Below are positions 58,346 through 62,127 of a stretch of DNA of 64,000 nucleotides, piece by piece (the stretch's first letter is position 1; each line of letters begins with the position of its first letter). Origin of the DNA: Gracilimonas sp. (GTDB taxonomy: Bacteria > Bacteroidota > Rhodothermia > Balneolales > Balneolaceae); contig NZ_JAVJQO010000002.1 in NCBI RefSeq assembly GCF_040218225.1, forward strand, positions 434,001-498,000. The letters are read 5' to 3'. The notes beneath the pieces were generated by a model, which was not told where the DNA came from, made no database searches, and was given only the letters and a program-made list of their open reading frames with translations. A program made the position numbers and the translations under genes.

Positions 58346-59320
58346 ATGAGCACAATTCTCACACATATTGCAATTTCAGATGGTAAAATTAAGCGTTCAT
58401 CTCTTGAAGTTTTATCACACTGCAAAAAGATAGCTGAATCTGGCGGACATTCTGTTGAAGCGGTTATTATTGACGAAAAAGCCTCTTCCTATGTGGATGG
58501 AGTAAAAAAATATGGAGCTTCAAAAATTTATACTGTTGAAGATCCAGTATTTAAAAATCACATGAATACGCCTTTGCTAAAAGCATTAGCAAAAGTAATG
58601 GAAACGGCTAACCCATTTGTATTTGCTTTCGCCTCCACAGAAGGAACTAAAGATATTTTAGGGGCTCTCGCTGCCAATCAGGATGCTTCCGTTCTTCCCG
58701 ATGTTTCTTCCTTCGAACTCATTGATGGAGGTATCAAGGCCAAACGTCCGGTTATGGCCGCTAAGATTGTCGCCAATACCGAAGCCAAAGGTGACAAAAT
58801 TTTGGTTTCCGTTCGATCCGGGTCTTATGATTTGGTTGAAAGTGAAACTGATGCTGAAGTTGTGAACATAGATTTCAATTTGGATGACAGTGACCTTAAA
58901 GCTACGCTTAAAGAGATTATTTCTGCTTCCGGTGACACCATCGACCTGAACGAAGCGGAAGCCATTGTTGCAGCCGGACGTGGTGTAAAAGACGAAGAAG
59001 GACAAAACCTGATTTCAGAATTGGCTTCGGTGCTTAATGCAGGTATTGGGGCTTCCCGTGCCTTAACCGAAGCTGGAGTTTACGATCCAAGTTTACAGAT
59101 CGGCCAGACCGGAAAGGTTGTTTCTCCACAATTGTACATTGCCGTTGGTATTTCAGGAGCTATACAGCATGTGGCCGGGATGGCCAACTCAAAGGTGATC
59201 GTAGCCATTAACAAAGATCCGGATGCCCCTATTTTCGAAGTAGCGGACTACGGGATTGTGGGAGACTTGTATAAGGTACTCCCTCCCTTCATCGAAGAAA
59301 TCAAAAAAATTAAGAATTAG
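58346..59320 (+). CDS. etfA: Electron transfer flavoprotein alpha subunit (FixB-like)
   Basis: A 324-residue ETF alpha/FixB protein. The C-terminal FAD-binding domain (about 195-310) shows [50 protein letters not shown] and [21 protein letters not shown]. It carries the ETF FAD between dehydrogenases and the quinone oxidoreductase FixC. It lies 59 bases after etfB and before a 78-base spacer holding an inverted repeat. Confidence 0.97.
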
Positions 59321-59332
59321 CAGAGAGCTATG

Positions 59333-59391
59333 AGTTTTGAGTGATGAGTTTAACTCTTTCACACAAAACTCCAGACTCCTAACTCAAAACT
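59333..59391. repeat. Inverted-repeat spacer between etfA and fixC
   Basis: AGTTTTGAGT (59333-59342) is repeated inverted as ACTCAAAACT (59382-59391), with partly similar TGAGTTT / AAACTCC blocks inside. The 78-base spacer has no gene. Its style (imperfect GAGTTT repeats) resembles dispersed intergenic repeats of this group and could be an empty relative of the cassette found after fixC. Confidence 0.6.
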
Positions 59392-59398
59392 GATCCAT

Positions 59399-60724
59399 AT
59401 GGACGAAAAGTTTGATTGTATTGTAATTGGTGGTGGTGTAGCCGGGCTGGCTGCAGCCATGACCCTCGCCCGAAACAACATGAAGTTCCTCTTAATTGAA
59501 CGGGGAGAATTTGCCGGATCAAAAAATGTATCTGGTGGAGTTTTGTGGGGAAGCGACCTGGCTAAACTCGTTCCAAACTACTGGGAAGAAGAAGACGGTG
59601 GCTGGGAGCGGTTTATCAATCATCGCCGGCTTACTTTTATGGACGAACAATCGACGTTTTCTCTGGACTTCAAGTCATCTCACTTTAATGAACCGCCTTA
59701 CTCAGGCGTTGTTGTGCTTAGATCAAAGTTTGATAACTGGCTCTCAGGTAAAGTGCAGGAGGCCATCGATGCTTCTGACTACGCTATGGACTCCTTCATT
59801 GCTACCAACATTAAGGTGGATGAAGTACTCATGGAGAACGGCAAAGCGGTGGGCATCAAAACCGGTGAGGATGAATTTCATGCCGATTCCGTCATCATTG
59901 CAGAAGGTGTCAATAATTTACTTACCCGTCAGGTAGGCCTTCAGGACAAATACGTGCCAGCCGACCATATGCTGACCGGAATCAAAGAAATTATCCGCTT
60001 TGACCAAGACGTTTTGGAACAGAAGTTTCAGCTTAATGGACTCAGCGGAATGAGCAATGAATTTGTTGGCTGGGCTACTGATGGCGTAGAAGGCGGTGGA
60101 TTCTTGTATACCAATCGTGATACGATCTCACTTGGTCTTGTTCTTGGAATCAAAGATATGCGGGAAAAGAATAAGAGTCCGCATGATATTCTGAATCACT
60201 TCAAAACACACCCTACCATCGCTGATATTATCAAGGATGGTGAAATCGTAGAGTATTCAGCGCATGTTGTTTCATCCGGTGATAAGCGGGCCATGCCCAA
60301 AGAATTGTATAAAGATGGAATTCTGCTGGCAGGAGAGTCCGCTAATTTGCTGATGAATGCAGGTAAAGCAATTCAGGGAATGGATTATGCAATGCGATCA
60401 GGAATATTGGCTGCTGAGACTATTGTGAAAGCAAAGGAGAAAGGCGACTTCACTTCAGCTACCCTGAAAGAATACCGCAAAGTGATGGATGAAAGTTATG
60501 TGATGAAAGACATCAACGGTTTCCAGGATGCCGTTCATCTTCTTCATACCGAAACCATGCAACAAAAAGTACCTAACTTAGTTTGTGACTTTGGACGGCA
60601 GTTCTTCACTATCAAGAACGAGCCTACTCCTAAATCAAAAGACATGCTTAAGGGAGCCATCAAACGACATTCATCTATCTGGGAATTAGCAAAACTCGGA
60701 TTTAAAGCAGGAAAATCTCTTTAA
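59399..60724 (+). CDS. fixC: ETF-quinone oxidoreductase flavoprotein (FixC-like)
   Basis: A 441-residue FAD protein with the dinucleotide fold CIVIGGGVAGLAAAMTLARN at the N-terminus, GSKNVSGGVLWG, and the FAD-closing segment DGILLAGESANLLMNAGKAIQGMDYAM. It passes electrons from EtfAB to quinone, with FixX supplying the 4Fe-4S cluster. Its C-terminal half has the expected quinone-site region. fixX is separated from it by a 489-base insertion carrying a minus-strand four-helix-bundle gene. Confidence 0.95.
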   Translation: MDEKFDCIVIGGGVAGLAAAMTLARNNMKFLLIERGEFAGSKNVSGGVLWGSDLAKLVPNYWEEEDGGWERFINHRRLTFMDEQSTFSLDFKSSHFNEPPYSGVVVLRSKFDNWLSGKVQEAIDASDYAMDSFIATNIKVDEVLMENGKAVGIKTGEDEFHADSVIIAEGVNNLLTRQVGLQDKYVPADHMLTGIKEIIRFDQDVLEQKFQLNGLSGMSNEFVGWATDGVEGGGFLYTNRDTISLGLVLGIKDMREKNKSPHDILNHFKTHPTIADIIKDGEIVEYSAHVVSSGDKRAMPKELYKDGILLAGESANLLMNAGKAIQGMDYAMRSGILAAETIVKAKEKGDFTSATLKEYRKVMDESYVMKDINGFQDAVHLLHTETMQQKVPNLVCDFGRQFFTIKNEPTPKSKDMLKGAIKRHSSIWELAKLGFKAGKSL

Positions 60725-61200
60725 GTGAAAAGGCAAAAGTGAAAGATGAAAAGTGTCTAAACCATATTTGATAACATTGCAAATACCTCGTTTGCCAGTT
60801 TTTCGACCTTCTTTGTTTTATTATTAGTTAGATATTTGAGATTAATTGAAATTTCGAGTTGGGTATCAAGTTCTACTAACGAAGACCTCGATATTCGATA
60901 AAATCGTTTTCGGTCTTTGTCAGATTTCCTGGAAGCACCTTCTGATAAGTTCGAAGGAATTGAAACCGCAGCGCGTCTCATTTGACTTGATAAGCCAAAA
61001 GTTTCTGTCTTTGGAAAGTTTTCAGTTAGCCGATAAATTTCGCTAACCAGTTCAATGCTTTTTTTATAAACGTTTAAATCTTTGTGATTTAATTTAATCA
61101 TGGTACCCCATTAAGATTGTTTTTCACAAATAAATACCAAAAAAATTAGAAATCTGGAAAGCTGAAAATGATCTTTCACTTTTGCCTTTTCCCCTTTCAC
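60725..61200. repeat. Inverted-repeat cassette carrying a four-helix-bundle gene
   Basis: AAAAGGCAAAAGTGAAAGAT (60728-60747) recurs inverted, without mismatch, at 61171-61190, and the outer GTGAAA ends (60725, 61200) also match with a 7-base gap. The repeats bracket the four-helix-bundle gene and split fixC from fixX. I see no target-site duplication or transposase. Confidence 0.8.
60757..61101 (-). CDS. Four-helix bundle protein (S23/IVP-type)
   Basis: A 114-residue all-helical protein of the four-helix-bundle (23S rRNA intervening sequence, S23/IVP) family, with LNVYKKSIELVSEIY, FPKTETFGLSSQMRRAAVSIPSNLSEGASR and SLVELDTQLEISINL. Relatives sit in rRNA intervening sequences or resemble the Avd protein of diversity-generating retroelements. 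Here there is no rRNA or reverse transcriptase nearby. It is antisense to the fix operon, inside the 20-bp inverted repeat, and may be the cargo of a small mobile cassette. Confidence 0.88.
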   Translation of the reverse strand: MIKLNHKDLNVYKKSIELVSEIYRLTENFPKTETFGLSSQMRRAAVSIPSNLSEGASRKSDKDRKRFYRISRSSLVELDTQLEISINLKYLTNNKTKKVEKLANEVFAMLSNMV

Positions 61201-61213
61201 AAATAGTAACGAT

Positions 61214-61516
61214 ATGAAGAACTTAAAACTCACAGAACGTCTTGGACTTGTAAGCTATCGTAATCAGGCTAAATCCGAGATCAAGCCGCATATTATTGTT
61301 GACACCGACATTTGTAACTCAACATGCCCTCATAAGTGTACTACCTATGTTTGTCCTGCAAATTGTTATACCATGGATGACAACGGAAAAGTACATTTCC
61401 AGGTAGAAGACTGCATAGAATGCGGAACATGCATGTATGCCTGTGATCAGGGTGCCGTAGACTGGAATTACCCAGACCCTGAAATTGGTCGTGGCGTTAC
61501 CTGGAACTTCGGATAA
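61214..61516 (+). CDS. fixX: Ferredoxin-like protein FixX
   Basis: A 100-residue iron-sulfur protein with CPHKCTTYVCPANCY and DCIECGTCMYACDQGAVDWNYP, the FixX signature, binding one 4Fe-4S cluster. It completes the EtfBA-FixCX path. Its stop abuts the convergent toxin gene with no gap, so no separate terminator is visible. Being downstream of the four-helix-bundle cassette, it depends on read-through from fixC or on a promoter within the insertion. Confidence 0.96.
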   Translation: MKNLKLTERLGLVSYRNQAKSEIKPHIIVDTDICNSTCPHKCTTYVCPANCYTMDDNGKVHFQVEDCIECGTCMYACDQGAVDWNYPDPEIGRGVTWNFG

Positions 61517-61897
61517 TCAAAAACCGAGATTTTGCAGCTTCTCATCTTTTGTAGCTAAAGGAAACTCATTTAATAGCGCCGTTGCTACAATGAGGCGGTC
61601 GGCTGGATCATCCGGAAAATCTGACGGAAGTTTTTCCTGAGCTAGGATTACCTCTTTATCGATGGGGATAACCTCGCAAATTTCAGGTTTTGTTGCCACT
61701 TCGATCCATTTTTTAAAGTTAGGCTGAAGATCAATAACCCCTTTTCGAGCCAGCATTTCCGTTTCCCAAATCGAAGCTGCTGAAATAGCTATTTCCTTTT
61801 TTGAAGCCGACTCATCCAGAGTCTTTCTCTCCTCTTCGCTCAAAGGACCTTCATCTAAAAGCCACCATAACCAAACATGTGTATCAAGTATAATCAT
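61517..61897 (-). CDS. vapC: PIN-domain toxin (VapC-type)
   Basis: A 126-residue PIN-domain RNase with acidic residues in the expected places: ILDTHVWLW (Asp5), AASIWETEM (Glu) and FPDDPADRLIVATAL (Asp). VapC-type toxins cut tRNA or rRNA. Its gene is 17 bases downstream of the antitoxin gene and ends directly at the fixX stop. It matches the longer PIN toxins commonly found with RHH antitoxins. Confidence 0.9.
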   Translation of the reverse strand: MIILDTHVWLWWLLDEGPLSEEERKTLDESASKKEIAISAASIWETEMLARKGVIDLQPNFKKWIEVATKPEICEVIPIDKEVILAQEKLPSDFPDDPADRLIVATALLNEFPLATKDEKLQNLGF

Positions 61898-61914
61898 CCT
61901 ATTCTGTGAATATC

Positions 61915-62127
61915 CTATTTATCAAAACCTGACTTATTTGCTGAAAGTCCTGAAGTCGTTCCTTTACCTTTTAGGTCTTTCCAGGGAGTTCCTTCAACTT
62001 CATTTTTAAGCTCAAGCTCTTTAGTTAAAGACCGGATGATTAGATCTTTCAGACTAATTCCTTCTTCCACTGCCTTTATCTTGGCTTTCTTCATTAAATC
62101 ATCGGGTATATCTACAGAAGTTCTCAT
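61915..62127 (-). CDS. vapB: Ribbon-helix-helix antitoxin (VapB-type)
   Basis: A 70-residue protein with an N-terminal ribbon-helix-helix DNA-binding domain (MRTSVDIPDDLMKKAKIKA, then GISLKDLIIRSL) and a Gly/Lys-rich flexible tail (GTPWKDLKGKG) that should bind and neutralise the toxin. It is upstream of the toxin gene, as usual. A palindrome and Bacteroidota promoter boxes lie directly upstream; the predicted transcription start falls at or next to the ATG. Confidence 0.85.
   Translation of the reverse strand: MRTSVDIPDDLMKKAKIKAVEEGISLKDLIIRSLTKELELKNEVEGTPWKDLKGKGTTSGLSANKSGFDK

Follow-up and report, generated by a model that had tools for sequence, protein, structure and literature searches.

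Between fixC and fixX of this Gracilimonas genome lies a small four-helix-bundle gene enclosed by inverted repeats, and we asked what kind of element it belongs to and how it came to stand in the fix operon. Positions below are those of the window, meaning the whole 64,000-nucleotide stretch that was analyzed (Table 1). The inverted repeat is real and has a perfect core of 21 nt (60727-60747 and 61171-61191), one longer than the 20 bp of the original prediction; with as many as three mismatches allowed, a 20-mer of the arm matches the window in exactly two places, against 0.01 expected by chance. It is not, however, a fixed terminal repeat. Read by sevens, each arm is a degenerate array of four to five units such as AGTGAAA and AGGCAAA, the two arms converge, and the word differs from one protein clade to the next. 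Since there is no fixed terminal repeat and the arms differ among copies, a classical TIR transposon or MITE is ruled out. Only four period-7 arrays occur in the 64 kb, and they make up two inverted pairs, one at fixC-fixX and the other a gene-less hairpin of the same heptamer construction in the fixB-fixC junction (59321-59398). The PF05635 gene is antisense between fixC and fixX, as had been claimed, but the rest of the operon is not tight at every junction. Folded in silico as RNA, the cassette reached -118.2 versus -92.4 +/- 6.0 kcal/mol (z -4.3), which supports the earlier suggestion of a long hairpin in the fix transcript. Directly after fixX (61517-62127, minus strand) stand a PIN-domain gene of 126 aa and an upstream antitoxin-like partner of 70 aa, likely a type II toxin-antitoxin pair.

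Table 1. Features of the cassette and its surroundings in the window
Feature	Position	Strand	Remark
Empty hairpin in fixB-fixC, left arm	59319..59352	+	word AGTTTTG
Empty hairpin in fixB-fixC, right arm	59361..59395	-	word AGTTTTG
fixC (ETF-quinone oxidoreductase type)	59399..60724	+	left neighbor; stop codon abuts left array
Left heptamer array	60722..60756	+	AGTGAAA AGGCAAA AGTGAAA GATGAAA AGTG; period-7 scan; begins at fixC stop codon
Four-helix-bundle gene, 114 aa	60757..61101	-	PF05635 / TIGR02436 (23S-IVP)
Upstream region of PF05635 gene	61102..61168	-	contains TTTTTTGGTA...CTTAA stretch
Right heptamer array	61169..61202	-	inverted copy of left-array word; period-7 scan
fixX (ferredoxin-like)	61214..61516	+	right neighbor

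The assignment of the gene to the S23/IVP family was confirmed by profile scores of 131.3 bits for PF05635 (cutoff, 33.8) and 117.9 bits for TIGR02436 (cutoff, 24), while bAvd (PF22296) and NF033474 gave subthreshold matches. The nearest solved structures by sequence, 2gsc (XCC0516) and 2rld, were each deposited with five chains, and Avd, the related four-helix bundle of diversity-generating retroelements, is a pentamer. Unlike an Avd gene, the window gene has fixC and fixX as neighbors, with neither a reverse transcriptase nor a template/variable repeat seen next to it, and the locus is not a diversity-generating retroelement. The cassette yielded no match to a nuclease, transposase or polymerase domain. 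A known RNA family was ruled out, with no Rfam match in 59200-61300, and a defense system was rejected, with no convincing match in PADLOC (E values of 0.0035 and 0.009; 14 to 15 bits).

We compared the flanks of PF05635 genes in two sets, one of ten genomes of the genus (labeled G000 to G009; 117 matches, 116 testable) and one of 80 distant relatives, of which 77 were counted, from bacteria and archaea (Bacteroidota, Nitrospirae, Elusimicrobia, Proteobacteria, Planctomycetes, Acidobacteria, SAR324, Chloroflexi, Gracilibacteria and Methanophagales). Arms were defined by an inverted-repeat score of at least 15, with mismatched pairs of left and right flanks as the control, and were picked by complementarity rather than by periodicity before the lag test. 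They were present at 72 of 116 genes in the genus (2.6% expected from mismatched pairs) and at 53 of 77 in the distant set (1.9% expected), leaving about a third of family members without detectable arms. Base identity within the arms at lags of 7, 14 and 21 was 0.60, 0.60 and 0.59 in the genus, compared to 0.31 after shuffling, and 0.58, 0.56 and 0.51 in the distant set, compared to about 0.31; coding sequence and distant flanks, used as controls in the genus set, gave no period 7. Some arms have a period of 8. In both sets array size peaks at four to five units, with a median of 33 nt, and in the distant set 79 of 90 arrays have the strand carrying the constant G of the unit directed inward, toward the gene (other strand, 30 of 90). 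The same anatomy therefore recurs across phyla. Heptamer arrays as a trait of any gene between inverted repeats were ruled out by the GIY-YIG (0.21) and Y1/RAYT (0.25) genes of the same genomes, which have inverted-repeat flanks and no period 7. Inverted REP-like palindromes such as AAAGCCT...AGGCTTT enclose many lone small GIY-YIG nuclease genes of the genus (L227-L256), a layout like that of RAYT but with another nuclease.

The original prediction had presented a free-standing cassette as a new form of a family best known from rRNA. This did not hold: the free-standing form is the usual state of PF05635 in the sampled lineages, and no checked locus lay in rRNA, loci inside 23S rRNA being represented by isolated motif matches, none of them convincing. 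The window's own genome has 11 PF05635 matches, most of them between inverted repeats and each repeat of a different sequence. Words differ among the cassettes of one genome and are common only within a protein clade. Arm similarity between sites without shared flanks (4-mer cosine) fell with protein identity, from 0.86 at 80% or above to 0.68 at 70 to 80%, 0.35 at 60 to 70% and 0.15 at 50 to 60%, the background being about 0.1, although some of these pairs may represent one site with diverged flanks. Pairs within a genome (L045 and L053 in G006, and two in G002) show the same agreement of word and protein. Such a correlation would equally arise if gene and arms merely traveled together.

Mobility without a transposase gene, as originally proposed, was borne out by copies, empty sites and differently filled sites. 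The two G006 cassettes are 84% identical over 469 nt, and their homology is limited to the promoter motif, left arm, gene and right arm. The L053 site is also filled in G009 and is a short, hairpin-free intergenic stretch in G000, G001, G003, G004 and G007. Likewise, DNA shared between Flavobacterium L170 and L160/L183, at another site, ends at the outer ends of the arms. At the L053 and L120 sites, where flanks are too diverged, no clear target-site duplication was seen. Comparison of fixC-fixX among the ten genomes, which the original prediction had proposed, found the junction empty or differently filled: the window-type cassette is present in G000, G002, G003 and G009, a gene-less CAGCTAT hairpin in G005, G006 and G007, and 29 nt in G001 and G008, while the genes overlap without a gap in G004. 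These alleles reappear in distant clades. Neither the gene fixed at this place without repeats in all relatives nor a lack of repeat copies elsewhere was found; the exact 20-mer was searched for in the window, and its word is found again in congeners.

Turnover is rapid even between sister species, and gene and arms are transferred as one unit. G003 and G007, whose fixC genes are 97.2% identical, differ at fixC-fixX and ten more sites, 11 in all, usually by the swap of one hairpin word for another. At one of these (L122) the arms are retained and the gene alone is missing; at another (L035/L065) each species has its own, unrelated cassette, and the two point in opposite directions. At two of the differing sites G007 has gene-less hairpins with the same word as its cassette L035, and at one G003 has a gene-less hairpin with that of its L065. 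Where G007 has the four-helix cassette L070, G003 has a two-gene module (L330), apparently a toxin-antitoxin system, with a remnant of the left heptamer array still visible. The sisters G001 and G008 have at fixB-fixC an AGTTTTG hairpin and a relative of the window cassette, respectively. On each side of this swap 200 nt are 100% identical, compared to 98.2% for fixC as a whole, and thus no diverged donor tract is seen in G008. The G008 array supplies the last fixB codons and the stop codon, changing DELKKIKN to DELRKVKS before the stop. In the window, the fixC stop codon directly adjoins the first unit of the array (60715-61205); given these two cases, it is possible that arrays make new gene ends or take the place of old ones.

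Gene-less arrays of a resident word are dispersed in two distant genomes. With a query of three units and at most two mismatches, we found 88 overlapping matches to the word AGTTCTC, spread over about 17 places of the acidobacterial genome of L195, and 30 to AGGTCRT, over about 14 places of the Planctomycetales genome of L197, with none in either reversed control. The L195 word was not found in 8 of 10 other PF05635-bearing genomes, and the two exceptions are both Acidobacteria. Some dispersed arrays are gene-less convergent pairs (L397-L400 and L409), while others are single and form no hairpin. A common TTTTCCGTTTTTCCCTA stretch precedes the gene-less AGGTCRT arrays L409, L410, L412 and L415 (G011), so these copies share more than their heptamers. 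The window's own genome has few gene-less hairpins (one in the window and about three in 620 kb; 684 kb counted), and the words of two of these four match no resident cassette.

PF05635 genes of the genus share a promoter-like motif, TTTGTAAGG-N15-GCTCTWAC, which has 116 copies of invariant spacing in the ten genomes and none in the reversed control (e.g., G000:C4:107863, C4:182064, C4:596214 and C7:16759, with 112 other places in the genus). Thirty copies precede PF05635 matches, at a distance of 42 to 204 nt, while 11 precede RAYT genes and 4 precede GIY-YIG genes; other motif-bearing genes, named from reading their translations, include comM, comEC, recA, recQ, recF and an integron-type integrase. 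Given this position upstream of recombination, competence, RAYT, GIY-YIG and PF05635 genes, we infer that the motif defines a recombination/transformation (competence) regulon, apparently undescribed. The exact motif is absent upstream of the window gene, where the TTTTTTGGTA...CTTAA stretch may, judging by eye, be a degenerate form of it.

Three known systems resemble parts of this picture. Intervening sequences of 23S rRNA with an S23p/IVP open reading frame, as in Coxiella, Leptospira and Salmonella, share the protein family and terminal inverted repeats that form a stem; that of Coxiella has a 28-bp terminal stem, tandem GACAGAT heptamers before the S23p gene and excision by RNase III (PMC4990558). 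The window cassette differs in lying antisense in a protein-coding operon rather than in rRNA, in its word and in recurring at many sites. REP/REPIN sequences and their RAYT (TnpA-REP) likewise combine a single-gene factor between inverted, genome-specific short repeats with dispersed gene-less copies, a dispersal seen here in the two distant genomes and sparse in the window's own. However, the window gene belongs to PF05635 and lacks the Y1 (PF01797) HuH nuclease, and its arms are heptamer arrays, not single palindromes. Finally, tandem heptamer families, including cyanobacterial STRR, have a period of 7 and about four units, often in convergent pairs in Xanthomonas. In the available portions of their descriptions, which cover GGGAATC of Xanthomonas and Nostoc (PMC4692102), TAACTGA (PMC4679880) and the Geobacter heptanucleotide elements (PMC2700814), all words fit the form N-G-(A/G/T)-NNNN and, unlike here, none is tied to a gene. 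We found no paper in the open-licence literature linking heptamer repeats to PF05635.

We consider it probable that the cassette is a REP/RAYT-like mobile element recognized by its heptamer word and kin to the 23S intervening sequences. The stem of a hairpin would be formed by two arrays, each of some five degenerate heptamers, that converge on a loop carrying the PF05635 gene. Its protein, probably a pentamer like its solved relatives, may recognize its own word in single-stranded nucleic acid in steps of 7 nt, one for each unit; the peak of four to five units and the five-chain crystals suggest a five-subunit ring in contact with about five heptamers. The word-bound protein might then protect the hairpin, anneal it or deliver it for insertion, in a manner comparable to the action of RAYT on REP/REPIN, with insertion itself presumably left to host functions. 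In this genus, RecA, ComM and ComEC would be likely partners, since their genes have the promoter motif in common with PF05635 genes. Transcription from the fix side may expose the stem to cleavage by RNase III, as happens to 23S intervening sequences, and the insertion would then be tolerable.

It is also conceivable, if somewhat unlikely, that the element acts mainly at the RNA level, the arms serving as an RNA stem from which RNase III excises the cassette out of the host transcript and the protein binding heptamers of its own mRNA for self-control, with movement incidental. The stable predicted fold and the excised, heptamer-bearing Coxiella intervening sequence are consistent with this, and a ring protein with ordered repeats is reminiscent of TRAP. 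Nevertheless, many cassettes sit where no transcription through them is obligatory, the scattered gene-less arrays are often single rather than hairpins, and the arms move with the cassette. Mobility could instead be owed to a RAYT (Y1) transposase or another enzyme that moves heptamer hairpins in trans, making the four-helix gene mere cargo. The promoter motif common to RAYT, GIY-YIG and PF05635 genes would fit such a division of labor, as would the action of RAYTs on palindromic REPs described in the available part of PMC8266576. Yet the palindromes beside RAYT genes of the genus are of an ordinary kind with no period 7, and the word tracks the PF05635 protein, a tie to be expected of cargo only in so far as gene and arms travel together; we therefore think this quite unlikely.

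Recent differences might also arise with no mobility of the element at all, if transformation and homologous recombination had swapped intergenic alleles in their entirety. The recurrence of fixC-fixX alleles in distant clades and the promoter motif on competence genes speak for such exchange. The identical flanks in G008, set against its more diverged fixC, speak against it while leaving room for a close conspecific donor, and new sites such as L053 are left unexplained, making this distinctly improbable as the whole account. That low-complexity intergenic DNA merely happens to flank the gene, by chance or slippage, is hardly credible: the arrays are indeed short and degenerate, but their excess over mismatched pairs and shuffles is strong in two independent sets, and the window's period-7 arrays occur solely as inverted pairs.

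Operon junctions, fixB-fixC and fixC-fixX among them, have been rewritten between sister species through hairpin exchange. More broadly, and more tentatively, it is possible that such cassettes form a class of mobile element widespread among bacteria and also present in some archaea. Its sole protein would be a ring-forming four-helix bundle reading 7-nt steps in lineage-specific words, and its nonautonomous offspring would be the scattered heptamer repeats that have been familiar for decades. This would offer one origin for two old puzzles, the role of the PF05635/S23 protein and the source of the tandem heptamer repeats of cyanobacteria, xanthomonads, Geobacter, Beggiatoaceae and Bacteroidetes. 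If each protein prefers its own word, the family would amount to a natural library of sequence-specific ring binders of single-stranded DNA or RNA, covering many 7-nt words.
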